Position numbers and translations under genes: made by a program
The notes under the pieces: generated by a model
Told to the model about the DNA's origin: nothing
Databases searched by the model: none
Seen by the model: the letters and a program-made list of their open reading frames with translations, nothing else
Assembly: GCF_900890425.1 (NCBI RefSeq)
Contig: NZ_CAAHFG010000001.1
Span: forward strand, 2,170,001-2,234,000
Length of the DNA: 64,000 bases
Source of the DNA: Pontiella desulfatans
GTDB lineage: Bacteria > Verrucomicrobiota > Kiritimatiellia > Kiritimatiellales > Pontiellaceae
Reading direction: 5' to 3'
Shown: piece after piece, positions 33,661 to 63,880 of the stretch
How the letters are laid out: each line of letters opens with the position of its first letter
How positions within the stretch are numbered: position 1 is the stretch's first letter

Positions 33661-35691
33661 TTATTCTTCAACCAGGGTGAGGTTCCGCTCCAGCTGCTTC
33701 TTCAGGTTTCCTGTAAACCTGCCCTGTTCGACAATAAGCGTCTCCACCCCCATGCGTTTCAGTCGGGGTATAATGTGGAGGGTGGACGTCATCCATTTCA
33801 GGTTGACCATCCGCAGGGTTTTTACCTTGAGATCCTCCAGTTCCACCAGGTCAGTCAACGGCGTATCACTGACATCCAGCCGTTCAAACGAATACGGTTC
33901 CAATACATTGGCATACAACACCCCGGGAATAAGCAGTTTATATCGGCTGTAAGGTTTTCCGGACAGATCGAGAACAGATCCGGATTTCCCGGTTGAAATG
34001 TCCAGGGGAACAACGGAATGCGGACGGGGGCCATTCATCTCTTCCAGCATGGTACCGGCCAGAACTGCATACCCATCCAGGGCGGGGTTCGGCCGCCGCC
34101 GCATGTGGTGCAGATAGGTGTAATAGGTGAACTGCTTGAAAATCGGTTGGGAAGTACCGAACATGATAGCCAGTTCTTCTTCTTTCAGCAATGCGATGTC
34201 ATCCGGTTTAAGGGTTGCAAAATCGCGGGCGACCGGCAGCATGCGTTCGGCATAGCCTACCCCCGATGCCTCGAAACAGCGGGCAGCCGCATTGAATTCC
34301 TCTACAATAAAATGAAGAACCCCCTTCTGGGTCAGCATTTCCTTTCGCCGAGCCGGATCAAGATCCCCCTCCAGTTTTTTATCCAGTAGCTCAATATTAA
34401 AAAACGGATGCCGCATGTCCGGTTGACGCGCCAGGTATTCCAGCATCTGCAGGACATCCGCGTTCAGCTGCTGCGAAACCACCAGTTCCTGACGGTATAA
34501 CTCAAAGTTTTCCTCCGCCACCCCTCGCGCTTTCACCGCCACATTCCGTTCAATGTCCACACGGATAATCGCCGCAGCCGCCATCCCCACCAGAATGATC
34601 AACGACAATACAGACAGTAAAGCCAACAGGGCATGCCGTTGCGTGAGCAGCACAATCCGACGCATCATACCGGCCTGCTCAGCCTGTGTTGGAAATCCGC
34701 TCATGTAATATGAAATATCGACCTGCAGTTCCTTGACCGTTTTATATCGTTCAGCCGGTTTCAACGAAAGCGCCCTCATCGCCACCGCCTCAAGGCTGAC
34801 TGAACATCCTGTGTGGCCGGTCCTGCGCCGGGGAGGAATCACACCGCCATGAAGCGTTTGTTCAATAACTTCATGGGCGGATTCTCCCGGCACCGGAATT
34901 TCATACACCAGCAGCATATACAGAATCGCCCCTAAGGCATAAACATCCGTCTGCACCGTCTTGGAGGACGAACCATCGGCCTGCTCCGGGGCCATAAAAC
35001 CGGGCGTTCCTTTCAGTGTTCCCGACAGGGTAAAATCATTCAGCTCATCGCCGTCCAGTTCCCCGGGCTCCAGCTCACCGGAATCTTCGGAATACACAAT
35101 CCGTGCAAGCCCCCAATCGCAGACAAATACATCTCCGAACGGACCGACGCGAATATTCGACGGTTTCAGATCCAGATGAAGTACACCACGGGAATGGGCG
35201 TAGGCCATGGCATCACAAATCTTCAGGTAAATATTCAGCAATACATCCAGCGGATACTTCGCAACATAATCTGGACCCCGCTTTTTCAGCCCGTTAACAA
35301 TATCTTTCAGGCTGTCCCCCGGTAACAGCTCCATCGTGAAAAACGGCTTACCTTCAGGATTAATCCCCATGTTGTGAATCGGAAGAATATTCGGATGCGC
35401 CAGATTGGCCGTCAGGCGGGCCTCACGAAGAAACTGTTCCTGATCTTCATTCGATCCGCATTTAACCGGATAGGCCAGTGCCACCCGCCGGCCCAACCGC
35501 CGATCGTACACCCGGAAAATTTCCTTTTCCGCCCCTTTACCGATCTGCTCCGGAATTTCATACCGCTCCCCGAAATCCTTCAGCGAATTCAGGATCGGCG
35601 TCAGCTGTTCCCGTTCAGCAGCAGAAAGGCTTTCTTCATCCGCATCATACAGGTCGGCTAATACATCAGGCTTAATCTCATCGTATTTCAT
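33661..35691 (-). CDS. Membrane-anchored Ser/Thr kinase-like protein lacking the VAIK lysine
   Basis: The ATG at 35691 (MKYDEIK) gives 676 residues. The kinase domain spans about 45-325. It has a poor glycine loop (IGKGAEKEIF), RRVALAYPVK with Ala73 where the ATP-binding lysine is expected (a lysine is at 77), HLDLKPSN with catalytic Asp164, DWG at 182-184, and GFMAPEQ. A single membrane helix lies at about 343-367. A 310-residue outer part follows, with leucine-rich spacing near the end (LDVSDTPLTDLVELEDLKVK). Related PVC kinases share the VALA-type substitution, so it may still be active or may be a signalling pseudokinase. It converges with an ECF sigma gene. The stop is right next to a hairpin repeat. 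Confidence 0.85.
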   Translation of the reverse strand: MKYDEIKPDVLADLYDADEESLSAAEREQLTPILNSLKDFGERYEIPEQIGKGAEKEIFRVYDRRLGRRVALAYPVKCGSNEDQEQFLREARLTANLAHPNILPIHNMGINPEGKPFFTMELLPGDSLKDIVNGLKKRGPDYVAKYPLDVLLNIYLKICDAMAYAHSRGVLHLDLKPSNIRVGPFGDVFVCDWGLARIVYSEDSGELEPGELDGDELNDFTLSGTLKGTPGFMAPEQADGSSSKTVQTDVYALGAILYMLLVYEIPVPGESAHEVIEQTLHGGVIPPRRRTGHTGCSVSLEAVAMRALSLKPAERYKTVKELQVDISYYMSGFPTQAEQAGMMRRIVLLTQRHALLALLSVLSLIILVGMAAAAIIRVDIERNVAVKARGVAEENFELYRQELVVSQQLNADVLQMLEYLARQPDMRHPFFNIELLDKKLEGDLDPARRKEMLTQKGVLHFIVEEFNAAARCFEASGVGYAERMLPVARDFATLKPDDIALLKEEELAIMFGTSQPIFKQFTYYTYLHHMRRRPNPALDGYAVLAGTMLEEMNGPRPHSVVPLDISTGKSGSVLDLSGKPYSRYKLLIPGVLYANVLEPYSFERLDVSDTPLTDLVELEDLKVKTLRMVNLKWMTSTLHIIPRLKRMGVETLIVEQGRFTGNLKKQLERNLTLVEE

Positions 35692-36550
35692 GGTAAACAG
35701 AATAGCGGATCCCCCCTGAAAAGAAAAAGAGGAACGCCGGCCGATTGTGCCCCTGAAAGGCCGCGGCGAATCAACGCATGTTCCGGTTCCATAAGATAAC
35801 GGGCACAGCAGATGAACAAAACAAGCGCATCGCCAGCTGGAGTGAATCACCGGTCCAGTGAAGGCCTCGACCTTAACAACTGAATGTAGGCCGGACTGCC
35901 GGCCCTGAGACGTTCAGCAAGGCCGCCCGATAGAAAAACTCCCGCATCCGGGCCGTGAATATAAAAATGGGGAGCCTTCACCCGAAGGCTCCCCGAGGAG
36001 TGGAGTATAAAAAACGGCAGTATCAAACAAACCCAACATTTGAAATCAATAACCTATTTCCCATACTCCTGATGATGAAAATGGTGTGTTGCTTTATATA
36101 TAATACGTCTCTCATGCACATGATCTGACACTTTTTATTAGAAGTGAGTCCCAAAATAACCATATCCCATTACAGCAAAGCAGATTAACACCGTAAAAAA
36201 AAATTCAAAACCCCTCTACCCAGCTCTTTAACCTCGATATTATGAAACTGAACCGCGTGGTTTTCAGCCGCCCCCCGCTTAAGTACATTATATTCAACAT
36301 CATTGCCTCTGCTTTCAATATTCGGCGCCATACTCCCACCCATTTCGGGCAGGAGCGCGGAGCAGCTGATTCAATGATGACTCATTGATCATTCCTTTAA
36401 TACTTTTTTATATACTGACATCCGGATCACAGATACCGGCATGACCCATTTATAAAGTGTTCATTTCATTGATGGACTAGACCAAATGAAGCCCCCTGCG
36501 CATCCCGGCTGCTGGTTCCGATCAGTTGGTCATAACGGTCTATATTCAGG
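35692..36550. other. Long gene-free A/T-rich interval
   Basis: I find no credible gene in these 860 bp. The interval holds the kinase-gene promoter region, a strong minus-strand hairpin terminator at 35961-35994, and at 36460-36490 a short stretch (TTCATTTCATTGATGGACTAGACC) resembling the left end of the IS1595 element in this window. A minus-strand small RNA ending at the terminator is possible. Confidence 0.5.
35961..35994 (-). terminator. Intrinsic terminator about 560 bp beyond the nearest minus-strand gene
   Basis: GGGGAGCCTTC and GAAGGCTCCCC form an 11-bp perfect stem. Read on the minus strand it is followed by ATTTTTAT. It would end transcription from the 36551-47849 cassette or from an unseen short RNA gene. 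Confidence 0.7.
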
Positions 36551-38620
36551 TTAATCAACCGGGATAAATTCAAATCCGGTAATCGTCAGATCCACAGGAG
36601 CAACAACATGGTCATCTCCGTAAACAAGAATCAGTTCCTTGATATTAACCAGCCCCGGCGTACCAGGCATTGGGATTTCAATCGTATTTTCATGCCCAAC
36701 CGCAACATCAAAACGAATATAGATTTCATTTTCGAAGACCATCGGTTTGATTGGAAGCCCCGGCGCACGCTTTAGCGTAATCACACCTTCTATCGGATCC
36801 GCCGCACGGTATTTAATTTCAAGCATACCATTCGAAAGGCTGATTCCCTTTTCCTCGAGTACAACAATAGTAATTCCGCCCGTACGCACTTTTTCACCGC
36901 GCACCTGAAAACGGTCTGTTGTTCGCTGCGGAACCAGTTCATCGCCGGCCGACGTCCATGACAACCATTGAACATCCTCCTTCAACAGATTCATTTCAGC
37001 CCCCGGCTTGTTAAATTCAGCCAGTTTGGTTTCGAGATCATGTGCCGCCAGGTACCGCTGCATATTTTCATGGCCCGACCCGATGCCGCCCAGCACCAGC
37101 GACAACGTATGCGCAGACGTCTGAAATTCAATAACCGCATTGGAGCTCGTGTTATACCCTTCCCACGGACCGTGATCCGTAAAGAGGCCGCTGAAGGTCT
37201 CCCAGTGTTCAGCAAGAAAAGCTTCCATCTTTTCAGGAGCAATCATGTAGGAAACGCCCAGCGTGTAAAGCGATGGTGCATCCGTAATGCGATGATGCGA
37301 TGCCACAGCAATATCAGGAATACCTACATCACCGGTATACTCAACGCCTTTACCACTGTAGGACTCCGTCAGAAAACCGGGATTGCCCAGACGCCGTGCA
37401 AAATCGAGTTCAATATCCACGGTATTTTCAAGGTTCTTCTGCCATCCTGCAAACTGAGACTCCTGCATGAATGAAGTCAGCCCCAGCGACTGGAATGCCG
37501 ATCCATGCCACGTAGCCAGGGTATAGATATCCTTTCCATCCTTCATGCGATACGGCTTAATCTGGAAACCTGAATTTTTCACCGAGTTAACCGGAAAATC
37601 ATACTTCAAAAGACAGAACATAAACGGTGCGCGGAATTCGTTGATAAAATAGTTCTGATGTCCGACAACCCAGCCGCCTTTCCCGTCAGGCCACCCGACA
37701 AACTGATCGGTTGATGCATTCCAGCCGAAAATAAAGGTATCGGTTTCCGGATCAAACAGGTGATTGTATCCCTCTTCCTGCGCCAGGATAAACGCTTCCA
37801 TCTTTTCGCGCAGTTCAACTGCTTTAGGATCCTCTTTCACATTCGGATGCAGTAACGCTCCGATGGTCTTGGCAATCGAAGAGGTCAGGTTTACATTATC
37901 CCCGAAAATAATCTTAACCACACGCTCATCAAGCAGCTCCATAATTTTATATTTTGTCGCATCATCCGCAAAGGGTTCGAGCGCTCCGGTAAAATATTCT
38001 GATCCATATTCACCAACGCGTTTAATCTTTCCTTCAACATCCTCACGCTGCGGAACAATCCACCCGCGTTCCGTCAGAGCCTGCCAGATTTTTTCAGCTT
38101 TCGCGTCGCCGAATGCGTCAACAAAATCGACCTTTTCAACCTCTTCTCCCAGGGGCCCTAAGCGTCGCCCCCCTTCCAGCCCCAGAAAATTACCAAGCAG
38201 CCCTTTGGCACTGACCGTCGGATCCTGCTGATCGGCCACAAGTGAATGTACCGCCTGCTCCAGTTTTACCAATGCGTCATCACGGGTAACATATGGATTG
38301 TCCGCATAGCCGGCCGCAATATTAGCCAATAATTCAACCCATTCGCCAATAGAGGTCAGCTGTGTAAAAGACCGTAAATATAACCCTTTAGACGGATCAT
38401 GATTCCAGCCCTCAACCGGATAACCGGATTGCTCATCAATCAGTCCGTGCGTGGGATTGATGTACCCCATCGAGTTCATCAACAGCTGCTGCATATGCGT
38501 ATGATCCGGTCCTACCATCGGAAAGTGAAAGTCGCCCTTCAACTCCGCTGGATTCCGACTGCTCGATCCAAATGCAAAACCCGCAGCCATCAATACGGTA
38601 GCAAACAGTTTCTTTTTCAT
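36551..38620 (-). CDS. Large exported protein, probable (alpha/alpha)6 glycan-active enzyme, family not identified
   Basis: The ATG at 38620 gives 689 residues with a signal peptide (KKLFATVLMAAGFAFG). Helical, aromatic-rich segments dominate: LYLRSFTQLTSIGEWVELLA near 85, GWVVGHQNYFINEFRAPFMF near 325, YTLATWHGSAFQSLGLTSFM near 375 and LFTDHGPWEGYN near 490. A beta-rich end of about 110 residues follows (PIKPMVFENEIYIRFDV). The pattern of WHGSAFQ, DIELDFARR and GPWEGYN resembles glucoamylase-like toroid enzymes such as GH144, but I cannot assign a family. It is the last gene of a cassette with a GH144-type enzyme and a GH94 fusion, so a role in degrading or trimming the same glucan is a reasonable inference. 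Confidence 0.65.
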   Translation of the reverse strand: MKKKLFATVLMAAGFAFGSSSRNPAELKGDFHFPMVGPDHTHMQQLLMNSMGYINPTHGLIDEQSGYPVEGWNHDPSKGLYLRSFTQLTSIGEWVELLANIAAGYADNPYVTRDDALVKLEQAVHSLVADQQDPTVSAKGLLGNFLGLEGGRRLGPLGEEVEKVDFVDAFGDAKAEKIWQALTERGWIVPQREDVEGKIKRVGEYGSEYFTGALEPFADDATKYKIMELLDERVVKIIFGDNVNLTSSIAKTIGALLHPNVKEDPKAVELREKMEAFILAQEEGYNHLFDPETDTFIFGWNASTDQFVGWPDGKGGWVVGHQNYFINEFRAPFMFCLLKYDFPVNSVKNSGFQIKPYRMKDGKDIYTLATWHGSAFQSLGLTSFMQESQFAGWQKNLENTVDIELDFARRLGNPGFLTESYSGKGVEYTGDVGIPDIAVASHHRITDAPSLYTLGVSYMIAPEKMEAFLAEHWETFSGLFTDHGPWEGYNTSSNAVIEFQTSAHTLSLVLGGIGSGHENMQRYLAAHDLETKLAEFNKPGAEMNLLKEDVQWLSWTSAGDELVPQRTTDRFQVRGEKVRTGGITIVVLEEKGISLSNGMLEIKYRAADPIEGVITLKRAPGLPIKPMVFENEIYIRFDVAVGHENTIEIPMPGTPGLVNIKELILVYGDDHVVAPVDLTITGFEFIPVD

Positions 38621-38822
38621 TGCTCTCTCCTTCACGTTCAAATTCATAATACATATTCCGTCTTAATTCCTCTGATTCTGATCTGCCGACCTATTTTCAC
38701 CGTTACACCATCCCACCCGTGTATGGCGGAGTCCTAAATAAAATACTGTATCTATACCCCGAAAAGTGGGACGATCACCGATCCATCCCGATTTTCAACG
38801 TTTCGGGCACGCCTGTGTCGTC

Positions 38823-41800
38823 CTACAGTTCCAGAGGACTCTTCGTAACATCCCGTTTCAGCTTCTTAAACTTCAGTTCACCTCGTTCAACATCCAGATC
38901 GTTCGGCATAATCACCTCATTATTAATCAATGTCGCACCGATCACCGATTCACAGGCTTGACGGAGCATCCACGCCGCCGCACCGGTATAGCCGTTCCAG
39001 ATCATACGACCCTGGTCATATTTAGTCAGGTAGTCCGCACACTGTTTATTGGGCTGACCGCCATAGATCTCGATCTCTTCTTTCGTTACATGGGAAATAG
39101 CCGAAACCTTGTACCAGATCCGTGCACAGGCATCGCGATAGTGTTGCGCCGTTTCCTGATCGCCCTGCTCCGCAAAGCGCTCCGCCAACAGACGGCAGGC
39201 CCGCGTCAACCACTGCACGCCGTGGGAATACATTCCGTTTTCACGCACTCCTTCCGGATAGCGGCTCGAACGGCCGAGATACGGTTTGGTATCTTCCCGC
39301 AATGGCGGAAAGCCGAGGCTGACCACATTATGGCGTTCGAGCACCTTGATCGCGGTATCGACCGCAATACGGCTTCGCTCCGTATTCACATCGGCATAGA
39401 CTGCCCACGCCGCGCCCAGTGCATCGGTTTCCCAATAGCCTGCGCCTTCAACGCCGATCTCGGTTCCGTCATCATGAATCGCACGCAGGTAGCGGTCACC
39501 ACGCCAAACCTTCTCAATATTTTCTTCAAGTTTCTTCATACGCCCTTCATAGAGCGCCCGGCGCTTGGCCCCGCTGCGCTCTTCAATGATGTGCAGGAAG
39601 TTTTTAAGAATATACGTCAGGAAGAATCCAAGCCATACGGATTCACCGCGACCTTCGGACCCGATTTCATCCAATCCGTCATTCCAGTCCCCCGCTCCGA
39701 TCAGCGGCAGACCATTCGGTCCAAGACGTTTTTCGAATACACAGTCGAATGCTTTCAGCACATGTTCAAAGATCGGATCACCCTTTGGAGACCGCAACGG
39801 ATAGAAGCCCATTCCATGTTTACCTTCCGGCAGCCCCAGCAACGGTGTTTCCGCTTTCAGATAGGTTACCTTTTCATCCAACAGGGTTTGATCACCGGTC
39901 ATACGGGTATATTCAGCAATCCCCCAGCCCAGCCAGAGCAGATTGTCATAGGCATGCGAACGGCAGAGGAAGCCGGAACGCCCGTCCTGTTGACGGAAGA
40001 ACCAGTGCACGACGTCCCCTTCCGAGAACTGCTGTGAAGCATGCAGCTTCAGCTGTGCACGGGCCAGTTTCGGGTCCACCCAGATCATATTGACCGTATC
40101 CTGCAGCTGGTCGCGGAATCCAAAGGCGCCGGACGCCTGATAGAATCCTTTACGGGCCCAGATGCGTTCAGCCAGCGCCTGGTACTTCATCCATTTAACA
40201 TAGGCATCAAATGTTGCATCGGAGGTTTCCAGTTCCAGCGTGGACTGCAGGGCCAGCCACCATTCCTTCGTGGCTTCCAAGGTCTGGACGGCGACTTCCA
40301 ATGATTGGAAGGTTGCAACGACGGCTTCGGCCTGCTTGCGGTTGTCGCCCTGGCCGAGCACGACCGAGATGGTCTGCTCGCCGCCCGCCGGAACCTCGAC
40401 GGTGGTAGTCATGGCAGCCACGGCAAAGTCGTCGGAGGTTCCTGCAACCGGGCTTCCTCCTTCGACCATCGCCGGATGGGCGAAGGTGCGACCCTTGCCA
40501 AAAAACTCTCCGCGCTTGGTGGTGTAGGTTTCCACCGGCGCACTCATCGCCACAAAGCAGACCCCCTCGCGGAAGCTGTTGCGCGGGTTTTCGAAATACA
40601 GCGCACCCGTTGCATCGTCGCGGCTGATTTTGAGTTTACCGGCCATTTCCGGACTGTGCGCCAGCGCAATCTGGAAATACGGCGCCACGCGCAGCTTGCG
40701 CGCCTTGGAACCGTTGTTCTTGATCTTGAGGATATAGACGCCGGTCGGCTCGTCGAGCGGAACGTGTACGCTCAGCTCGGTGGCGAGATTGCCCTTCTCC
40801 ATTTTAAAGGTGGCGGTGCCGTCGAGGCCGAAGAGCACATCCTGCTTGGCTTCGTCATCCTTGAGCGGATCGTAGGTCGGCGCAAACCATTCCTTCGAGG
40901 CTTCGTCGTAAAGGTAGATTGCTTCGGCAGGCATTTGCTGCCCGGTCACGTCCGCCCAGTCGGTGGTCAGGCGGTTTTGCTGCGCATTGCCGTTGGTGGT
41001 GCAATGCAGGCCGCGGTTGGTGACCGAAACCACGTGGCCGAGCGAATTCGACATTTCGTGGTCGAACGGACGCGGCGTGAACGGCGTTTTCACCCGCAGC
41101 GTATTGCCATCGTCGAGATATTCCGTGTATTCATCCGGCGTGCCCGGCAGGATTTCGCCATGACCGATCAGCGGGAAACGCTCCGGCTGCTTGGTATTCG
41201 CCAGACTGGTATCGACCGACGGCTTCAAATGCGTACCGATCCAATCCGCCGCAGTCTGTTTGGTTTCACAGCATCCCACCAGAATCTTCAGCGGTTGGTT
41301 CGCATCGATCAGCATGGCACCGATCGGGTCAAAGGACGGATAGGCATCCATATTGAGCGCGGGTTGGAATTCCAAGGTTTGGAAAACGCGCGGATTCCAG
41401 ACGCTGCCCGCACGACCGATGAAGTCGATACGGCCGGAGAGGATGCCTTCGGGCTTTACGCTCGATGCGAGGATTCCGTGCACCTTTGTATATCGGTGCA
41501 GCGCGAGAATTGCATTCATATCAGTGTGGTACGACATTTCCGGATAGAGGCGGTTATACTGCGAATGGTTGCGGTCGGTGCCCGCATTCTGGATCATCCA
41601 TTCGAGGTAGGGCACAACCTTGAGGTTGCGCTTCTTGCCGGAGAGATCTTCGATATTGATGTCCCAAAGCTCAACCGCATCTTCTTTGTTTGGAAGTGTG
41701 ATCTTAACCGTGGAGCGGACGTCATTTGATTCGTTGACGACGGTGATCACGTCGCCTTCCTGCGTATAGACGGACGGCGTGAATAGCTCTTCCGGGAAGT

Positions 41801-44642
41801 TGCCCAGGATCGGCCAGCCCTGCTTCGCGTCGGCATCGACCACGTAGAGGATGCGCCCGGCGGGTTCGACATTTTCGAAGGCCGGGCGGGTCAGACCGTA
41901 GCCCTTGGTGGTGAGGATCGAGTTGAGTTCGCCGCTCTTCTTGAGTTCAACGCTATAGGTGTTGTTGGAGAGGCGCAGGGTCTTTTCCAGTTGTTCCTCG
42001 CCACGCTTGCGCTTCGAACTGCGGAACACGAAGACGATGGTTGCCCCGATAAAGATAACAAAAATCGAGAGCCAACCAAACGGGAATTGACCGGCAGAAT
42101 CCTGGAGCGCCAATCCGTTTTCAAAAACCTGGTTCCATTCATCGCCCTCGGGCAGGTAGAAGGGAATCAGCAGCGGTGCCCAGGTGGTGAAACGCTTGAC
42201 GCCTTCCGGAATAAAGCGCGCGGTGGCGTCTTTGCCGACAAAGGTGGCGCAGCGTTCGTCGAGCTTGTCCATGCCGAGGAACGACAGGTTGACGAGCGTT
42301 GCGACGCGCAGCCCCATGTGGTCGATCCAGATCAAGACCTGGAACCAGGCAAAACCAATGATCCAGCTGAAGACCGTCAGACTCCATGCGGTAAATCCTT
42401 CCGCATCCATTAGAATACTGTTAACCGATGCAAAAACTGTACGGATCAGTCCGTCCTGATTATACCAGGTGGCTTCCGCCATCGGGCGCAGGAAGGTAAA
42501 GATGATCGGCGCCATCCATAGGCCCCATCGCAGCACGTGTACGGTTCCGTCAACCAGCTCCGCAACACCGTCGCGGGTTGCAATCCGTTTAATGGTTGAT
42601 GCGTCCTTGTTAAGGATCGCGGCCAGGAAGGCTTTATTGATGGCAAACAACGGAGCTGCAATTCCCCAGCCGATTACGCCCATCAGCGCTTCGTTAAACA
42701 AAATTTTAGCCCCGCCTGCTGCAGGAGAAAGACTGATGTGCCCCCAGCGGCTGATCAATGCCGTAAATTCATTCGGTGCGGTTGTACGCAGTTCATGACA
42801 GCGGCGAACAATTTCGCCGGGTTCCATCCCGAAAGAGGTATACAGCTCAAACTTGGTTCCGATGATCGGCAGTTGCGATGCATCAAAATAAAAACCCAGT
42901 CCGGCGCCGATGAAAGCCCCGAGCCCCCCTTCTACCAGATAATAACGTGGCGATTTAAAGCCGTAGACGATATCGCGCGCCAGACTGACTCCGCCAAAGG
43001 CGGCAAATCCAAACAGGGCTCCCAAACCGATCCGTGTTGCGGTCGGGAGTGATGCAAAATCAATCTGTAATCCGACAGCAAAGGCCAGACCAACAACCAC
43101 ACCACGGATATAAAGAACCGGATCCTTATAGGCATTCAATGCACGCCCGAAGAAAGACTGCGATCCGTCAAAGGTTTCAACAATGGTTTTAGCTAAAGGA
43201 AAAATGATGGCACCCACGAGCACAAAACTAATGGAGGTTCCAATAAGGCCCAGGGAGCCGACAAAAGCAATTAACTGCAGCAGGCCCATCAGGACACCAC
43301 TGAAAACAGCTCCTTTAACCACGCCGCTTTTTGCGGTTGGCAAGGCGGATTCAAATGCCGGAGCACCGCCGCGTATCGCATCGAGAATCATACCGGTCAA
43401 TAAAAATACAATCCCCCACAGCGGTGCCTGAGAAAGCATCGTGGCCGCAACCGCGGCAAACGGAGCAACCGCTTCCGGCATCGAAAGCGAACCCAGATCG
43501 GCTACCTTCGGAGCAAGCGTTACCGCCACAGACAAAACCGCCAGCAATCCATGAACCCGGATATCCGACAGCGACTTCTGACGCGTAATCAGCTGCGCGG
43601 CATTTGCAATGAATTCAGCAAAAGCAAATATCAATAACGCCTTCATCCAAATTGAGCCGGCCGTCTGAACAGCCAGCAACAGACCGAATGCAAATGGAGT
43701 GACTGTGATGACACATGCCCCGATCATACCAAGGTGTTTACCGAAGGCCGACAGGCGGTATGCATTGGCGATGAAGTACACCGCCGAAAATAACGCCGCG
43801 CCGAATGCACTAAGCTGGAAAAACGACAACAAAGAGGAAGGCGCCTGCCACACCGATCCGGAGCTGGCCATGGCAGCCAATAGACCGGAGAACAGGGCAT
43901 TCCGAAATGCTTCGCCTTTGGTCAGCGATTTGCCGACCTGGGCGGCTTTAAGCAGTGCGCCAATGGCAACTCCCGCTACGGAGAAGCAGAGGGGAACGCA
44001 AACCTGACGGAAGATGCCAAGGACGACCGCAAAAATGAGCGTGGTTGCCAGACCCAGTGCGACATCGCGCACGAATCCCCGCAACGGTTTAACCGGAATA
44101 AAGGCCACAGCGATGGCGAGCAACGAGACCAGAAGGACGCCCGCCATTTTTCCAAGCAAAGAGGAATTGAGTTTTTCGAAGGACGACATGGTTGTGAAAC
44201 CGATCTCGACATCCAGCGTGCCCAGTGCCGGATCAGCACCGCCGACACGCTGCACCAACAACACAACTTCCGAGAGTTCACCGACCACCGACCAGTCGAT
44301 CTGCACTTTGCTGGTTTCATTCAAAGGAATGTCCAGAGTCTGGATACCGGCGCTCCCTTTCAACTCAATACGAGTTGCTACATTTCCGGATTCGCCGGAA
44401 ATCAAACATTCAATCTGGTCGGCCCCACCGGCAGCCAGCTCCGCCGGATAGTCCTTGGTCCAGATACCGGCCATATCGTTTCCGGCAATGCGGTATTCCA
44501 AAACGGAGCCCTGCGCTTCAACCGAAGCATCGCCCATATTGAACGCACCGCACTCGGCGGCATCATTCCATGTAAACGGCGCCGCCAGCGCCGACCCGGC
44601 CATCATAAAACTCAACAGTACAATCTGTTTAACCCAATTCAT
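38823..44642 (-). CDS. 1939-residue fusion: signal peptide, beta domain, polytopic membrane domain, GH94 phosphorylase-like module
   Basis: Residues 1-20 are a signal peptide and 21-160 a beta-sandwich. From about 165 to 875 there are many hydrophobic segments separated by short loops (MAGVLLVSLLAIAVAFIPV to LSIFVIFIGATIVFVF), then a basic stop (RSSKRKRGEEQ). Residues about 885-1939 look like a GH94 protein: an N-terminal beta-sandwich, GAFGFRDQLQD, HASQQFSEGDVVHWF, GDWNDG at 1651-1656 with the expected catalytic Asp1655, and RENGMYSHGVQWL. GH94 enzymes phosphorolyse beta-glucosidic bonds, and the same module ends cyclic beta-1,2-glucan synthases. No GT84 glycosyltransferase signature is seen in the membrane part, so it is not an ordinary NdvB. 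RBS GGGTGAG precedes the ATG. Confidence 0.82.
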   Translation of the reverse strand: MNWVKQIVLLSFMMAGSALAAPFTWNDAAECGAFNMGDASVEAQGSVLEYRIAGNDMAGIWTKDYPAELAAGGADQIECLISGESGNVATRIELKGSAGIQTLDIPLNETSKVQIDWSVVGELSEVVLLVQRVGGADPALGTLDVEIGFTTMSSFEKLNSSLLGKMAGVLLVSLLAIAVAFIPVKPLRGFVRDVALGLATTLIFAVVLGIFRQVCVPLCFSVAGVAIGALLKAAQVGKSLTKGEAFRNALFSGLLAAMASSGSVWQAPSSLLSFFQLSAFGAALFSAVYFIANAYRLSAFGKHLGMIGACVITVTPFAFGLLLAVQTAGSIWMKALLIFAFAEFIANAAQLITRQKSLSDIRVHGLLAVLSVAVTLAPKVADLGSLSMPEAVAPFAAVAATMLSQAPLWGIVFLLTGMILDAIRGGAPAFESALPTAKSGVVKGAVFSGVLMGLLQLIAFVGSLGLIGTSISFVLVGAIIFPLAKTIVETFDGSQSFFGRALNAYKDPVLYIRGVVVGLAFAVGLQIDFASLPTATRIGLGALFGFAAFGGVSLARDIVYGFKSPRYYLVEGGLGAFIGAGLGFYFDASQLPIIGTKFELYTSFGMEPGEIVRRCHELRTTAPNEFTALISRWGHISLSPAAGGAKILFNEALMGVIGWGIAAPLFAINKAFLAAILNKDASTIKRIATRDGVAELVDGTVHVLRWGLWMAPIIFTFLRPMAEATWYNQDGLIRTVFASVNSILMDAEGFTAWSLTVFSWIIGFAWFQVLIWIDHMGLRVATLVNLSFLGMDKLDERCATFVGKDATARFIPEGVKRFTTWAPLLIPFYLPEGDEWNQVFENGLALQDSAGQFPFGWLSIFVIFIGATIVFVFRSSKRKRGEEQLEKTLRLSNNTYSVELKKSGELNSILTTKGYGLTRPAFENVEPAGRILYVVDADAKQGWPILGNFPEELFTPSVYTQEGDVITVVNESNDVRSTVKITLPNKEDAVELWDINIEDLSGKKRNLKVVPYLEWMIQNAGTDRNHSQYNRLYPEMSYHTDMNAILALHRYTKVHGILASSVKPEGILSGRIDFIGRAGSVWNPRVFQTLEFQPALNMDAYPSFDPIGAMLIDANQPLKILVGCCETKQTAADWIGTHLKPSVDTSLANTKQPERFPLIGHGEILPGTPDEYTEYLDDGNTLRVKTPFTPRPFDHEMSNSLGHVVSVTNRGLHCTTNGNAQQNRLTTDWADVTGQQMPAEAIYLYDEASKEWFAPTYDPLKDDEAKQDVLFGLDGTATFKMEKGNLATELSVHVPLDEPTGVYILKIKNNGSKARKLRVAPYFQIALAHSPEMAGKLKISRDDATGALYFENPRNSFREGVCFVAMSAPVETYTTKRGEFFGKGRTFAHPAMVEGGSPVAGTSDDFAVAAMTTTVEVPAGGEQTISVVLGQGDNRKQAEAVVATFQSLEVAVQTLEATKEWWLALQSTLELETSDATFDAYVKWMKYQALAERIWARKGFYQASGAFGFRDQLQDTVNMIWVDPKLARAQLKLHASQQFSEGDVVHWFFRQQDGRSGFLCRSHAYDNLLWLGWGIAEYTRMTGDQTLLDEKVTYLKAETPLLGLPEGKHGMGFYPLRSPKGDPIFEHVLKAFDCVFEKRLGPNGLPLIGAGDWNDGLDEIGSEGRGESVWLGFFLTYILKNFLHIIEERSGAKRRALYEGRMKKLEENIEKVWRGDRYLRAIHDDGTEIGVEGAGYWETDALGAAWAVYADVNTERSRIAVDTAIKVLERHNVVSLGFPPLREDTKPYLGRSSRYPEGVRENGMYSHGVQWLTRACRLLAERFAEQGDQETAQHYRDACARIWYKVSAISHVTKEEIEIYGGQPNKQCADYLTKYDQGRMIWNGYTGAAAWMLRQACESVIGATLINNEVIMPNDLDVERGELKFKKLKRDVTKSPLEL

Positions 44643-44710
44643 TTATTCTCACCCAAAGTTAAGCCCTTACATTCTTCCCCGAAAAAAGTTCCAATGTTTG
44701 GCAGCTGTTT

Positions 44711-46243
44711 TTATTCATCCCGCTCAAACCCGATCGCCTTCAGGGTCGGGACAATTTCAGGATTCTTCATAAAGTTTTTCCAGCACAGACCGGTGCGTGC
44801 ATTTTCAATCATCACAATGATCGGCCCCTGGTCGATGGCGAGGTAACCATCGGCAAACCAGTCGCGATCCGGGTTGAACGAATCGTAGAAGCCGAAAGGC
44901 CCCCACAGTCTGTCCCCCAGCTCGTGGTAGAAATATTTCATGGTCGCCAGTGATTCTTTCGGCGTATAGGGCATCGAGCCCAGGGCCGCGGTCGGCGCAA
45001 TCGTTCCGTTGTCGTGTTTGCCGCCGGGTTCACACGCCCGGTAGCCGTCCGGCGTGTAGCAGGCGGTCAACCCCCAGACCAGTCCGTTATATCCCTTGAA
45101 GTCGCCCGGGTTGTCCTTGCAGTAGGCGCGGTGAATTTTGGTGATGGCCTGCGCATTTTTAAAATAGTTGGTGAACTTGTCGCGGATGCCGCGCGGATCG
45201 AAGCAACAGAAGGAATAGTGCGAGAGGAACAAAGGACCGCCCATGTGGCGTCCGACGTCCAGCGTGATTCCATAGTGCTTTTTCCCGTTCGCATAGTTGG
45301 GCTGTCCGGCCCAGCCTTCGTAGTAGGCCTCGGCCGGGATGGGGTGCGTCGGCGAGGCAATGGCGAGCAGGTAGACGATCATGCATTCGTTGTAGCCGCG
45401 CACTTTCAGGTTTTTCTCAAAACCATAATTAGGCGACCAGTGCCAGACCATGTAGGGCTCTTTATAGAACCAGTCCCACTCGACGGTTTCCCAAAGGCGG
45501 GTGATCGTTTCGCGCAGCTCCTTTTCAACCGGGTTGTCCTGATCGAAATATTGCCGCACGGTCAACAGCCCCTGCATCAGCAACGCGGTTTCGACGATGT
45601 CGGCACCGTCGTCGGTCTTGGAAAAACGGATGGTCTTCCCGGTGGAGCCGTTGATCCAGTGCGCCCATGCACCATGGTAGCGATCGGCCTTTTCCAGAAA
45701 TTTTGCGATGGTCAGCAGGCGTTCGGCGGCTTCAGTACGGGTGACGAATCCGCGCTCGGCTCCAATCATGACAGCCAGAACACCAAAGCCGGTTCCGCCG
45801 GATGCGCAGCCGTCGAAATTGCCGAAATAACGCTCGCGCGTCATGCCGCTTACGGGGTGGGCGTAGTCCCAGAAATATCGGAACGTCGCCTCCTGAATCG
45901 AGGTAACCAGCTCGGCATCCTCCATCTGGCGGGTGCGAGCGGAAACGGGTTTCGGCGCAATGAATCGTTCCTTCCCCTCGCCCACAATTTCCGAAACCTT
46001 GTAATAATAAACGCGCCCGTTTTTTCCGGTAAAGTCGGAATAGACGCCGACCGGATGCGGGTTCTTATTAATCTTCTCAAAAGAGCCGCGCGCTGCGTCG
46101 TTGCGATAGACGTTATACAGCACATCACGCTTCGCTTCCCAGGAGAGGTCAACCCGGCTGTCCGCCCCGGTGGCCGTTAACGCGGAGGCATTGCCGACAA
46201 AAAGCAAAACAAGAAAAGCTGACGCAGACCAATAATTCATCAT
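44711..46243 (-). CDS. Exported glucoamylase-like enzyme, GH144 type (PF10091)
   Basis: The 510-residue protein has a signal peptide (SAFLVLLFVGNASA) and a short fibronectin-like segment (LSWEAKRDVLYNVYRNDAAR). The PF10091 domain then starts near 115: TFRYFWDYAHPVSGMTRERY, GGTGFGVLAVMIGAERGF, VRGYNECMIVYLLAIASPTH, GPLFLSHYSF, GLVWGLTACYTPDGY, DGTIAPTAALGSMPYTP and IDQGPIIVMIENARTG. Characterised relatives in GH144 are endo-beta-1,2-glucanases, so this substrate is plausible. The gene starts 16 bp after a sulfatase and ends 68 bp before the GH94 fusion, forming one transcription unit. The first of two adjacent ATG codons is used; the ribosome-binding site is weak, and coupling to the upstream gene is likely. 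Confidence 0.86.
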   Translation of the reverse strand: MMNYWSASAFLVLLFVGNASALTATGADSRVDLSWEAKRDVLYNVYRNDAARGSFEKINKNPHPVGVYSDFTGKNGRVYYYKVSEIVGEGKERFIAPKPVSARTRQMEDAELVTSIQEATFRYFWDYAHPVSGMTRERYFGNFDGCASGGTGFGVLAVMIGAERGFVTRTEAAERLLTIAKFLEKADRYHGAWAHWINGSTGKTIRFSKTDDGADIVETALLMQGLLTVRQYFDQDNPVEKELRETITRLWETVEWDWFYKEPYMVWHWSPNYGFEKNLKVRGYNECMIVYLLAIASPTHPIPAEAYYEGWAGQPNYANGKKHYGITLDVGRHMGGPLFLSHYSFCCFDPRGIRDKFTNYFKNAQAITKIHRAYCKDNPGDFKGYNGLVWGLTACYTPDGYRACEPGGKHDNGTIAPTAALGSMPYTPKESLATMKYFYHELGDRLWGPFGFYDSFNPDRDWFADGYLAIDQGPIIVMIENARTGLCWKNFMKNPEIVPTLKAIGFERDE

Positions 46244-46259
46244 TCTACATTCTTCATTT

Positions 46260-47849
46260 TCATAAATACGGTGTCTCAAAGGCTTTCTCTGGAACATCGT
46301 AATGCTTGCGCAAACGGTTCAGTTCCTTTTCCAGTTTCATCCGAACCGATTTGTATTCGGGATCATTAATCAAATTCTTCACCTCATTAGGATCTTCCTT
46401 GAGGTCATAGAGTTCAAAGACGTCGTCGGTATAAAAATGCATCAGTTTAAACCGACCCGTGCGCACTCCGTCGTGGCGCGGCACATTGTGCTTTCCGTGA
46501 GCATAGTAGTGATAATAGACCGACTTGCGCCAATCCTTCGGGGTCTTCCCCGCCAACACCGGCAGCAGGGAACGTCCCTGCATTTCGCGCGGAGGAACCA
46601 ATCCGGCTGCTTCAAGGAAGGTCGGAGCATAGTCGATATTCTGGATCATGGCTTCCGGCTGTGAACCCGGTTTGATGACGCCCGGCCAGCGGATGACAAA
46701 CGGCATGCGGAGCCCCTGCTCATACATCCAGCGCTTTTCGGCCATATAGTGCTCGCCCGTAAAATAGTCCTGGTCGGAGCTGTAGACCACGATGGTGTTT
46801 TCGGCCAACCCATTATCGTCGAGCCATTGCAACAGGCGGCCGACGTTGTCGTCGACGCCTTCGACGATGCGGAGATAATCCTTAATGAAGCGCTGGTAGC
46901 GATACTTTTTATCAGCAACCGTTTTCTTGCGGCCGTTTTTCGAAAGCTCGCCCTTCTTGACGCGCTGATAGTAGTCGCGGTTTTCGTCTTCGTAGGCCGC
47001 AAAATAGGCCTCGCTCTCTTCCTTGGTCATGCGCTGGAAATATTTTTTCTGCGCCTTGTTCAGGCTACCCATCGGATCGTCGGGATCGAATATATTCAAT
47101 GCGGAGTCCATGCCACCGACAGGCATCCAATGCTTGGCGAGGTGCGGACGGCCTTCATAATCGTCGAGCAGGGTTTCCGGCTCGGGAAACTCAACATCCT
47201 TGTAGCGGTCAAGGTAGCGGACGTGCGGCATGCGCGGTACGTGCGGCGCCTTGTACTGGCACATCATCAGGAACGGTTTGTTCGGGTCGCGGTCCCTTTC
47301 CATCCATTCAATGGCGCGGTCGGTGATGACATCCGTGGAATAGCCGTCTTTTTCAAACTCACCGTCTTCACCCAGGAAGATCGGTTTGTAGTAACAACCC
47401 TGATGACCAAAACCATCCAGAATTTCCCACGAGTCAAATTCGCCTTTGCTCGGCGCCGGCACCATATGCCATTTACCGCGTAGCGCCGTCTGATACCCGG
47501 CCTTTTTCAATTCACGCGTGAAAACCTTCTGCGTGCCGTCCCAGGCATTGCCGTTATCCATCATCCCGTTCAGGTGACTGTGTTTTCCCGTCAGGATCGC
47601 CGCGCGGCTCGGCTGGCAGATGGAATTGCAGCAGAAGCTGTTTTTAAACACAGCACCCTCTTCTGCAATCCGGTCAATATTCGGGGTGTTGTGCAAACCC
47701 GACCCATAAGCACCGATGGTGCGCTGCGCATGATCATCACTGAAAATAAACAAAATGTTAGGCTTTTTCGCCCGAACCGCATGCGCGCTCAGCCCCGCCA
47801 TTCCGGCGGCCATGGCTCCAATTCGTATAAAACTGCGTCTTTGCATCAT
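46260..47849 (-). CDS. Tat-exported S1 sulfatase heading the glucan cassette
   Basis: The ATG at 47849 follows GGGAGAGAG and gives 529 residues. The N-terminus MMQRRSFIRIGAMAAGMAG is a twin-arginine signal, so the enzyme is exported folded. The domain opens KPNILFIFSDDHAQRTIGAYG, with CQPSR (Cys78), RGKWHMV and YSSDQDYFTGEH. The pattern is that of N-acetylglucosamine-6-sulfatase or mucin-desulfating members, a subgroup guess only. It is the first gene of a unit with GH144 and the GH94 fusion. A LacI-type operator-like palindrome lies at 47902-47917, about 60 bp upstream. Confidence 0.9.
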   Translation of the reverse strand: MMQRRSFIRIGAMAAGMAGLSAHAVRAKKPNILFIFSDDHAQRTIGAYGSGLHNTPNIDRIAEEGAVFKNSFCCNSICQPSRAAILTGKHSHLNGMMDNGNAWDGTQKVFTRELKKAGYQTALRGKWHMVPAPSKGEFDSWEILDGFGHQGCYYKPIFLGEDGEFEKDGYSTDVITDRAIEWMERDRDPNKPFLMMCQYKAPHVPRMPHVRYLDRYKDVEFPEPETLLDDYEGRPHLAKHWMPVGGMDSALNIFDPDDPMGSLNKAQKKYFQRMTKEESEAYFAAYEDENRDYYQRVKKGELSKNGRKKTVADKKYRYQRFIKDYLRIVEGVDDNVGRLLQWLDDNGLAENTIVVYSSDQDYFTGEHYMAEKRWMYEQGLRMPFVIRWPGVIKPGSQPEAMIQNIDYAPTFLEAAGLVPPREMQGRSLLPVLAGKTPKDWRKSVYYHYYAHGKHNVPRHDGVRTGRFKLMHFYTDDVFELYDLKEDPNEVKNLINDPEYKSVRMKLEKELNRLRKHYDVPEKAFETPYL

Positions 47850-47901
47850 CACTCTCTCCCGGCACCAGAACAATCTAGCATGCCTCGATTTCCCAAACTA
47901 T

Positions 47902-47917
47902 ATGTAAGCGCTTTCAT
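47902..47917. promoter_or_regulatory. LacI-type (cre-like) operator
   Basis: ATGTAAGCGCTTTCAT is a near-perfect palindrome with the central GCGC typical of LacI/GalR-family operators. It lies in the 5' region of the sulfatase-GH144-GH94 unit. No LacI-type gene is in the window. Confidence 0.6.
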
Positions 47918-48400
47918 TTGTAAAGATAAAAGAATAGTTTTTTTGTAATCTGCCGAATTTCTCTTACTGGTCGACCCGGTTGGACAGTTATGTTGCGTGG
48001 TTTATTATGTTGCGAAGCATGCGTTTGAATAGCCTTCTGTTGATGTTGGTACGGGAAGTTCGCAACATAATTTCCGATTGAGCGACAGGCTTGTCAGGAA
48101 CTCGAGGATTGGTCATTCCGGAATACCAGAGGCATGAGACCACTGTCCATTTTCTGGATATGGATCTCGCCGTATTCATCATCGGCGTTTCCCGCGAACG
48201 AATTCTCAGAAACTCTCAATTCATCAAAAATGGCTCTGTAAAACTTCGGGGGAAACTTCGGGTTTTGCCCAGCAAAACTCACCGTTTTTCAGATAGTAGC
48301 ACCGCCCATTGACACCCAGACATATTCATGTATCATACTGACTACAAGGTTGATAAAGAAACAATCTGCAACGTGATTCATGGTTTAAATACCGCTTAAA
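47918..48400. other. Gene-poor interval before the IS110/IS1111-like element
   Basis: The interval contains the inverted repeat described at 47988-48071. It also has a minus-strand 62-codon open frame (48094-48282, FYRAIFDELRVSENSFAGNA) that may be a relic of a larger gene, but I could not assign it. An ATG at 48328 opens a 23-codon frame that stops before the transposase frame begins. Confidence 0.4.
47988..48071. repeat. TTATGTTGCG repeats with a 13-bp perfect inverted pair
   Basis: TTATGTTGCG occurs at 47988 and 48005 in direct orientation and inverted at 48061. The last two extend to ATTATGTTGCGAA (48004-48016) and TTCGCAACATAAT (48059-48071), 42 bp apart. This looks like a recombinase binding site or the scar of a lost element. 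Confidence 0.6.
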
Positions 48401-49450
48401 GTGGATGGCAATTCCAACGGCGAGAAGATCCGCAGAAAATCGATAGACGCCCGGGACCGCTCCCGCTTTATGCAGGAGCTCAAGCTGGCGAAGGAAAAGC
48501 TGGGCATGGATCCCGGCGTGCCGGCGCTTTGCTGCTACGAGGCTGGACGCGACGGCTTCTGGATCTGTCGGTGGTTGAAGCAGGTCGGACTCGAATGCCT
48601 GGTGATAGATCCGGCCAGTATCGAGGTCAACCGTCGCAAGCGCCGGGCCAAGACCGACCGGCTGGATGCGGAGGCGATGGTGAGGCTGCTGGGCCGGTAT
48701 GCGGGCGGGGACACGAAAATATGGGCTGTGGTGCGTGTTCCCTCGGAAAAGCAGGAAGATGAGTTGCGCCTTCATCGTGAAATGGAGCGTCTTAAAAAGG
48801 AACGAACGGGACATCTAAACCGGATTAAGGCGCTGTTTATTCTGCATGGAGTGAAACTCTCTGGAACGCTGACGAAGCTGTCGAAAACCTTGGATGGTTT
48901 ACAGTGCTGGAACAAGAAGCCACTTGCGGAAGAATTGAAAGAAGAGGTTCGCCGGGAACTCGAACGGCTGCGCCTGGTTGGCGAGCAGATAAAACTGCTG
49001 GAGAAAAACAAGGCGGAAGCGCTGAAGAACCCACGGACGAACGCGGAGCATCAGGCCCAGGACCTGATGCGCCTGCATGGAGTCGGAGAGGTCAGTGCAT
49101 GGGTGCTGAGCAAAGAGTTTTTTGGCTGGCGGGAATTCAAGAACCGCCGGGAGGTCGCCGCGCTGGCGGGGCTAACGCCGACGCCCTACAACAGCGGCGG
49201 GTCGAGTGTTGAACAAGGCATCAGCAAAGCCGGCAACCGGAGGATCAGGCGGGTTATGATCGAGCTGGCATGGTCATGGCTTCGCTTCCAGCCTGATAGT
49301 GCGCTGACGAACTGGTTTGTTGACCGCTACGCCAAAGGTGGGAAAAGGGCGCGCCGGATCGGAATCGTTGCCGTTGCGAGGAAACTGCTTGTGGCGCTTT
49401 GGAAATATGTCGAGTTCGGGGAAGTGCCCGAAGGAGCCATCGTTAGATAA
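48401..49450 (+). CDS. IS110/IS1111-like transposase, N-terminus possibly missing
   Basis: A GTG start gives 349 residues. Visible parts are YEAGRDGFWICRWLKQVGLE (second acidic residue region), AKTDRLDAEAMVRLL with the Asp pair, a helical linker, GVGEVSAWVLSKEFFGWREF, and the C-terminal YNSGGSSVEQGISKAGNRR with the catalytic-serine region. The expected first Asp motif (GxDxSK type) is absent. An in-frame TAA lies at 48386-48388, and a candidate upstream peptide (DYKVDKETIC, from ATG 48328) is in another frame. The gene is therefore a decayed copy, or a frameshift joins the two parts. Unlike the other IS110 copies, its long noncoding part lies downstream, as in the IS1111 subgroup. Confidence 0.8.
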   Translation: MDGNSNGEKIRRKSIDARDRSRFMQELKLAKEKLGMDPGVPALCCYEAGRDGFWICRWLKQVGLECLVIDPASIEVNRRKRRAKTDRLDAEAMVRLLGRYAGGDTKIWAVVRVPSEKQEDELRLHREMERLKKERTGHLNRIKALFILHGVKLSGTLTKLSKTLDGLQCWNKKPLAEELKEEVRRELERLRLVGEQIKLLEKNKAEALKNPRTNAEHQAQDLMRLHGVGEVSAWVLSKEFFGWREFKNRREVAALAGLTPTPYNSGGSSVEQGISKAGNRRIRRVMIELAWSWLRFQPDSALTNWFVDRYAKGGKRARRIGIVAVARKLLVALWKYVEFGEVPEGAIVR

Positions 49451-49492
49451 CCGGAAAAACGAGGGCATTGAATTTTATAATAAAGACTGGTG

Positions 49493-49747
49493 AAGGACCG
49501 TGTCAGTCCTTGGTTAATTACCGTTTCAATAGATTGGATTCTTCACCAAGTCGGTTGACTGAGCTTGAAAAAGCGTACGCAGCATTAGGTGGCCAGGGGT
49601 GTGAAACCTCGCACGGATAGAAGGTTGTCCGTTCAGTCGTTCTGAACGAACTTTCAAATCAACCGAGCAGTCTTTAGAGCAACAGAAAGGAAAAGATTAT
49701 AGGCCAGCTAGGTTGACAGTCCCCATAGAAGGACTGACACCTTTTTT
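49493..49747 (+). ncRNA. Candidate structured RNA (bridge RNA region) 3' of IS1111-like transposase
   Basis: The 250-bp noncoding stretch after the transposase is bounded by GTGTCAGTCCTT (49500-49511) and AAGGACTGACAC (49729-49740), which can pair as a 12-bp closing stem, and is followed by six T residues. Inside, TCGGTTGA (49551-49558) can pair with TCAACCGA (49659-49666), and GTTCAG/CTGAAC forms a hairpin. IS1111-type elements encode their bridge RNA on this side of the gene. I could not read guides because the element ends are not defined. Confidence 0.5.
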
Positions 49748-49993
49748 AAATCGTTTCCACTCTTCAAAAATGCTCCCAAAAACTCTCTTCATCCACTAAC
49801 ATCTATACTGATTCAGCTCGTGCATTCATTTCCGCATAGAACAACCCTCTACCAACAACCTACTACATGTCTGATTCTCCTCGCAGGATTTCATCGAAAC
49901 CTCTATTTTCCCCCTTATTGTTTAACGAGAAATCATATTAACACAAATATTCATGTCCAAATCACAAGCGAAAATAACCAAGGGTCTCGGAAA

Positions 49994-50875
49994 ATGGCGA
50001 AGACAAAACCACGGATTATAAAAACGGATACGGAATATATCTATATTCCGGGCGCGAGCCGTGAACGATTCCTGACGCCGCCCTTTCCTTCCATCAAGTA
50101 TCTGGCCACCAACAATATCATGATGGCAGGGCTGAGTACGTGGACGGATGGATATCGAATTGATCGCTATAAAATATACCACCATCTGCTGCTGTACACG
50201 CTGGGGGGGGCCGGTTCGCTCAAAATCAATGATGGAAAAACCGTTAAACTGAAGAAGGGTGACCTGTTCATTGCGCCTTACGATTCGAATTATTCCTATT
50301 GGACCGATTCGCATTGGGACGCGGCATGGCTGCATTTGTCGGCCGACTCAAAATGGGACACGTTATTCGGCACAACAGCACATGTACGAAAATCGGCCTG
50401 GGGTAAAGAAATGGATCGCGTGATGCAGGGCTATATTGAAGAGTCCGACCGACGCCGTGTGGATTCGGGCGCAGCGCTGCACTCATATGTCGACCTCATT
50501 CTGCTTTATATTCAGCGAGAGATCGGAGGCGATGACCCCTTATTGGCCGATGCCCGCCGCACGCTCGAAGGGCTGTGGAGTACGGTTCAGCAGGATCTCA
50601 AAAAGACATGGTCGGTCGATTCGCTGGCGCAGTTTGCCGGCATGTCGCGTTCCTGTTTTCACCGAACCGTGGTTGACCTGACCGGTTCAAGTCCGATGCA
50701 GGTGATCAACACCATGCGCATGGAGCGCGCCGGGGAAATGCTGCTCTACACCAACTACACCCTTTCAATGATTGCGGAGGAAATCGGCTACGAAACTCAG
50801 TTTTCCTTCTCCAAGGCATTCAAGCGCTATTCAGGAAAAAGCCCCAAGGAATTCCGCGAGGAAATGTCGAAGTAG
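49994..50875 (+). CDS. AraC-family transcriptional regulator
   Basis: I take the ATG at 49994 (MAKTKPRIIKT), giving 293 residues; a longer frame upstream has no ribosome-binding site. The N-terminal cupin-like sensor domain (about 30-130) includes YHHLLLYTLGGAGSLKIND and LKKGDLFIAPYDSNYSYW. It probably binds a sugar. The C-terminal 100 residues hold two helix-turn-helix motifs: SVDSLAQFAGMSRSCFHR and the family signature MIAEEIGYETQFSFSKAF, then KRYSGKSPKEFR. The gene converges with the GH5-galM-GH43-sulfatase operon and ends 8 bp from it, so it is the likely local regulator. Confidence 0.9.
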   Translation: MAKTKPRIIKTDTEYIYIPGASRERFLTPPFPSIKYLATNNIMMAGLSTWTDGYRIDRYKIYHHLLLYTLGGAGSLKINDGKTVKLKKGDLFIAPYDSNYSYWTDSHWDAAWLHLSADSKWDTLFGTTAHVRKSAWGKEMDRVMQGYIEESDRRRVDSGAALHSYVDLILLYIQREIGGDDPLLADARRTLEGLWSTVQQDLKKTWSVDSLAQFAGMSRSCFHRTVVDLTGSSPMQVINTMRMERAGEMLLYTNYTLSMIAEEIGYETQFSFSKAFKRYSGKSPKEFREEMSK

Positions 50876-63856: not shown

Positions 63857-63880
63857 CAAAAATATACTCTTTGAAATATG

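Follow-up and report, generated by a model that had tools for sequence, protein, structure and literature searches.

A four-gene cassette of Pontiella desulfatans as a candidate operon for the use of sulfated beta-1,2-glucan

The closest described counterparts of the system analysed here are the GH144/SOGP/GH3 gene clusters with which Chitinophaga, Parabacteroides and Listeria use beta-1,2-glucan, and the cyclic glucan synthases (Cgs), of architecture GT84-GH189-GH94. Single components also have characterised relatives. In the SGL clan of beta-1,2-glucanases the conserved residues of XcSGL are E239, F286 and Y367, and activity is lost in D149 and E221 mutants of EeSGL1 (PMC12102758); among sulfatases, the S1_11 subfamily, to which 5g2v belongs, reads D-gluco-configured 6-sulfates and acts in exo mode, according to PMC10154612. 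Here we describe a row of four minus-strand genes in a 64,000-nucleotide stretch of the Pontiella desulfatans genome, G000 (the window; contig NZ_CAAHFG010000001.1, positions 2,170,001 to 2,234,000), whose products are a sulfatase (P0004), a GH144-type glucanase (P0003), a membrane protein with a GH94 phosphorylase module (P0002) and a protein that looks, from its structural model, like a previously unrecognised beta-1,2-glucanase-like enzyme (P0001). We put at about 0.6 the probability that the four genes form one operon with which this marine bacterium uses foreign beta-1,2-glucan bearing sulfate and, in some relatives, acetyl too.

The genes, called as open reading frames (ORFs), occupy 36551-47849 in the transcription order P0004 (46260..47849), P0003 (44711..46243, the start being an internal ATG of a longest ORF that begins at 46297), P0002 (38823..44642) and P0001 (36551..38647). 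A preliminary description of this DNA had proposed four same-strand genes with gaps of 16, 68 and about 200 bp; all the ORFs are present and the first two gaps exact, the last being 175 bp. The PF10091 enzyme and GH94 module that it named are recovered by Pfam, P0003 matching PF10091 at 5.5e-79, above the curated cut-off, and P0002 matching PF06165 (1.8e-57) and PF17167 (4.6e-57). Solved relatives of P0003, whose start resembles a signal peptide, include 4gl3 (1.1e-151) and CpSGL (5gzh, 2.7e-132), in keeping with GH144. The proposed link to beta-1,2-glucan is well supported, for the fourth gene, P0001, also proves to encode an SGL-clan protein; with P0001 and P0003 both in the SGL clan, and a GH94 module of the Cgs type in the same gene row, we read the row as a beta-1,2-glucan operon. 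The families, the P0001 fold and residues, the GH94 module type and the linkage are results of sequence and structure comparison.

P0001 matches no Pfam or NCBIfam family above cut-off, and phmmer returned one relevant match, itself marginal, to EeSGL1 of GH192 (8xuj, E 8.5e-4); comparison by family profiles gave 1.4e-6 and 2.3e-8. With an AlphaFold model built from a 21-row alignment (predicted local distance difference test score, pLDDT, 87), structures ranked 1 to 15 all belong to the SGL clan (Z 40.5 to 26.3) and the first other fold follows at Z 19.8. The model is closest to the (alpha/alpha)6 barrels of GH144, GH162, GH189 and GH192-194, its best match being EeSGL1 (8XUJ; Z 40.5, root-mean-square deviation 2.2 over 390, 20% identity), with the cyclization domain of cyclic glucan synthase at Z 38.0; the C-terminal part resembles the sandwiches of carbohydrate-binding modules (CBMs). 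A plain glucoamylase or epimerase was rejected on the drop in Z from 26 to 19.8.

Five residues of P0001—D250, E337, F385, E428 and H513—are invariant in all 21 rows. D250 and E337 align with D149 and E221 of EeSGL1; through the same alignment, with a chain offset of 1, E337 and F385 are the clan Glu and Phe (E239 and F286 of XcSGL), while Y467, aligned with XcSGL Y367, is kept in 19 of the 21 rows and Y461 in 21. At the position of a Ser in EeSGL1, E428 pairs, in a gap-free alignment, with E1442, the nucleophile of the TiCGS GH189 domain; E337 pairs with the acid/base E1356, and the 48-residue spacing from the Trp is ungapped. A separate alignment with the Cgs from locus L060 gave the same partner for E428, the match to the GH189 hidden Markov model being weak alone (E 0.097). 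Because of this match of E428 to a nucleophile, P0001 may be either a hydrolase or a retaining transglycosylase. By sequence its nearest family is GH192, and since structural identity to this nearest characterised relative is 20%, P0001 is probably a new SGL-clan family, a placement made independently of CAZy's own trees. At L100:8465-11995 a P0001 homologue is fused behind a SASA-type acetylesterase domain.

The C-terminal half of P0002 aligns with the phosphorylase module of Cgs in both its pieces, GP1 and GP2-3 (E 6.7e-154), and conserves the GH94 catalytic Asp (D1655 of DWND, equivalent to D2528 of Cgs when positions are counted along the alignment). Pfam detects no glycosyltransferase domain in the protein, and a cyclic glucan synthase was rejected for want of GT84. 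Residues 18-155 resemble CBM11/29 (Z 11.6), and about 19 transmembrane helices are predicted between this part and GH94. Loop charges alternate through the first 14 helices and a KRK-rich basic tail follows the last, which by the positive-inside rule would put the CBM-like domain outside and the GH94 module in the cytosol. The fusion is modular, since genome G052 (L056), and probably also G323 (L135, cut short by the contig end), has a relative of the GH94 part that stands alone, and G231 and G247 encode the membrane and GH94-like parts in separate neighbouring genes. In Thiocapsa (L136, G329:C61:213000-224000) a 1160-residue GH94 ORF stands just before the OpgG match, and a large membrane-like ORF comes next.

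P0004 had been described as a Tat-exported sulfatase. The sulfatase stands, with matches to PF00884 (3.6e-52) and PF16347 (8.7e-58) and the CxPSR formylglycine motif of S1 enzymes in the form CQPSR; the product is predicted to be exported, its Tat signal being represented by RRSFIR and a weak PF10518 match below cut-off (E 0.013). Nearest solved relatives include the GlcNAc-6-O-sulfatase 5g2v, 7p24 and the L-Gal-6-sulfatase 7lha, and the best of them are S1_11 enzymes, the comparison being with solved structures rather than SulfAtlas. A tree built from 26 sulfatases places P0004 in a clade of six (support 100/100) that holds sulfatases from P0001 clusters of Planctomycetota (L100) and Verrucomicrobiota (L093 and L142, the latter from G247) as well as the unlinked L115 and L126. 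A second S1_11-like clade (L079, L102 and L072, all three picked by context) adjoins P0001 or GH144. Two sulfatases in L072 (G003:C179) precede a further GH144 gene (57% to P0003), possibly making a sister cluster. The window, L100 and L142 sulfatases have EKR in place of DKR, the D being present in 21 of the other 23 (L115 gave no pattern match and L128 has X at the position); we take this D to be the residue of the triad that reads O4. As G000 holds 555 first-look PF00884 candidates in 8.66 Mb, a sulfatase alone is weak evidence there; what carries the membership of P0004 is that the sulfatase linkage recurs in other lineages.

The grouping goes beyond chance because the P0002-P0001 neighbourhood recurs across phyla—Verrucomicrobiota/Kiritimatiellota, Planctomycetota and Acidobacteriota—and chance adjacency of all four genes was rejected on this ground. 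A genome scan for the P0001 family yielded 25 loci, neighbours being counted within the fetched flanks. In 10 (L079, L080, L081, L082, L086, L095, L096, L098, L100 and L103; L081 has only a C-terminal fragment of P0002, and L080 and L082 come from one bin) the next gene upstream, in the same orientation, is P0002; GH144 is present in two (L079, L093) and a P0004-like sulfatase in five (L079, L093, L094, L100, L102). Among 58 relatives, G000 included, P0001 was matched in 9 and P0002-type proteins in 31, weak GH94 matches counted. In G040 the order GH144-P0002-P0001 is kept, with GH3 and then two sulfatases behind it; L079 has a GH3 gene after P0001; and G247, which belongs to a distant family within the phylum, shows the row GH94, membrane part, P0001, GH144, two other genes, GH144, sulfatase. 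Three Isosphaerales plasmids have a P0001 match, and in both of those opened P0002 is directly upstream; L145 and L146, which hold the pair, lie on large non-mobilizable plasmids of this order, and on Paludisphaera and Aquisphaera plasmids the pair is annotated as two 'hypothetical proteins'. Altogether, S1_11-like sulfatases related to P0004 occur in such clusters across four lineages. SASA-type acetylesterase genes occur close to P0001 at L077 and L102, and at L100 the two are fused, an argument for decoration of the glucan; with related sulfatases and acetylesterase recurring in this way, the substituted glucan suggested in the preliminary description is well supported. Conservation of the gene order, by which that description proposed to check the cassette, is mixed: the P0002-P0001 pair is the stabler core, whereas GH144 and sulfatase come and go.

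From these comparisons we infer the substrate, the 6-O position, the topology, an inward direction, transport, and induction and regulation. P0004 would strip 6-O-sulfate from gluco-configured ends outside the cytoplasm, where P0003 and P0001 would cut, or transglycosylate, the glucan chain; the CBM-like domain of P0002 would capture the oligosaccharides, its membrane domain would move them inward, and the cytosolic GH94 module would phosphorolyse them to glucose 1-phosphate. A bolder version is tentative and rather doubtful: P0002 as a group-translocation-like machine with an undescribed membrane fold, in which the attached phosphorylase would pull the chain in and turn each glucose into glucose 1-phosphate; P0001 as a new family, possibly a retaining transglycosylase; and an undescribed sulfated and acetylated glucan as substrate.

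Several results weigh against the use of a foreign decorated glucan. The model of the P0002 membrane part is mediocre (pLDDT 69), and neither Foldseek nor VIA-align matched it to a transporter fold; their matches are mainly to the N-terminal sandwich, which is not proof of a new fold. P0002 does not adjoin P0001 in 15 of the 25 scan loci, some of them through contig ends, and no P0004-like sulfatase was seen in the fetched flank of 20. Literature searches, with subscription journals mostly outside their scope, gave nothing on point for sulfated beta-1,2-glucan or osmoregulated periplasmic glucan; those for GH144 or GH94 with a sulfatase likewise gave nothing on point within that scope. Finally, in 14 genomes of one genus (f2), OpgG is present in 6 of 6 with P0001 vs 2 of 8 without (Fisher p 0.009, uncorrected for kinship); there the pair goes with genomes that carry OpgG and presumably make glucan, and its ancestral role may therefore be own-glucan turnover.

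That association would be expected if P0002 and P0001 made or remodelled the cell's own glucan, GH94 building or trimming beta-1,2-glucan from glucose 1-phosphate, the membrane domain exporting it and P0001 trimming or cyclizing it outside, as in a cyclic glucan synthase rebuilt without its glycosyltransferase. The GH94 module of P0002 is indeed nearest to Cgs, E428 and E337 of P0001 align with the GH189 nucleophile and acid/base, and a GH94 enzyme, an SOGP, can make 1,2-beta-glucan from glucose 1-phosphate in vitro, as reported in PMC3960220. Of 20 genomes with P0001 or P0002 searched for these domains, GT84 was matched in 6 and OpgG in 11. Yet in a phosphate-rich cell a phosphorylase is a poor net synthase, and in G000 the pair sits with a degradative sulfatase and GH144. 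Moreover, the search found neither OpgG nor GT84 in G000, nor in G003, G028, G052, G322, G323 and G327; in five of the seven (G000, G003, G028, G322 and G323) a cluster with P0001 or GH144 includes a sulfatase. Since neither domain was found in G000, scavenging of foreign glucan is favoured there, and remodelling of the cell's own periplasmic glucan, which the preliminary description had allowed, fits OpgG-carrying relatives but is unlikely in this genome. We read the pair as a core for beta-1,2-glucan turnover that degraders rich in sulfatases, this bacterium among them, took over for scavenging.

It is less probable still that chance alone placed the sulfatase, and perhaps GH144, in this row, with GH144, P0002 and P0001 alone forming the functional unit on plain beta-1,2-glucan, as might be argued from the abundance of sulfatase candidates in G000, their absence from view at most P0001 loci, and the two P0004-clade members in other contexts, one within G000 itself. 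Set against this, of just 24 sulfatase matches in the 4.5 Mb of G323 (L093), two share an 8.8-kb contig with GH144 and P0001 (expected per-contig numbers ignore the clustering of sulfatases); linkage by the closest relatives of P0004 recurs in four lineages; and the second S1_11-like clade is also linked at three loci, though these were chosen by context.

The row may also carry its own control signals. A sigma-70-like promoter, TTTACA-16-TATAGT (10/12; minus strand, 47897..47924), precedes the sulfatase ATG by about 50 bp, and its spacer is filled by the palindrome TGAAAGCGCTTACA (minus strand, 47903..47916), a candidate operator presumably of the LacI/cre type. A similar site, AATGTAAACGCTTACATTA, precedes the L093 sulfatase and adjoins a divergently oriented lacI gene. 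P0001 is followed, some 560 bp on, by a terminator-like hairpin (minus strand, 35969..35994) with 11 pairs, 8 of them G-C, and a T-rich tail. Scans of the region gave 16 promoter-like sites vs 10.1 expected by chance and 15 terminator-like sites vs 15.2, so that single sites are suggestive only; the promoter is distinguished by its position, the hairpin by having the longest stem of the 15. Rfam gave no match in 35000-50000. A LacI-type protein would probably act as repressor of the operon, with a breakdown product as inducer. An IS110-type transposase (48401-49450) separates it from an AraC-type regulator (49820-50875), and at 59846-63859 a single 1337-residue ORF combines sulfatase, SGSH_C and GH43 domains.

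P0001 stands as a candidate new family in the clan of beta-1,2-glucanases, and its catalytic residues can be predicted; the membrane-phosphorylase architecture of P0002 would couple uptake to energy-saving phosphorolysis; and the cassette points to a sulfated, and acetylated, beta-1,2-glucan as natural substrate. Because public Planctomycetota plasmids label the P0002-P0001 pair 'hypothetical protein', it is open for annotation. P0001 has its best structural and sequence match in EeSGL1 and conserves the equivalents of D149 and E221, but has Glu428 for Ser and an extra C-terminal sandwich. P0004 has its closest solved relatives in the S1_11 sulfatases BT4656 and BT3177, of a subfamily with gluco/6-O specificity (PMC10154612), but bears E where DKR has D. 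The GH144/SOGP/GH3 clusters likewise join GH144 to GH94 (and GH3, in L079), for endo-cleavage then phosphorolysis; here the phosphorylase is fused to a membrane protein and a sulfatase, in relatives an acetylesterase, is added. With cyclic glucan synthase the cassette shares the phosphorylase half (GP1, GP2-3) in P0002 and, in P0001, the cyclization domain's fold and two catalytic Glu; it differs in that P0002 has no GT84, with no Rossmann-like insert aligned, and a different, much larger membrane domain with a CBM-like domain outside, and in that the cyclase-like enzyme is a separate protein, predicted to be exported.

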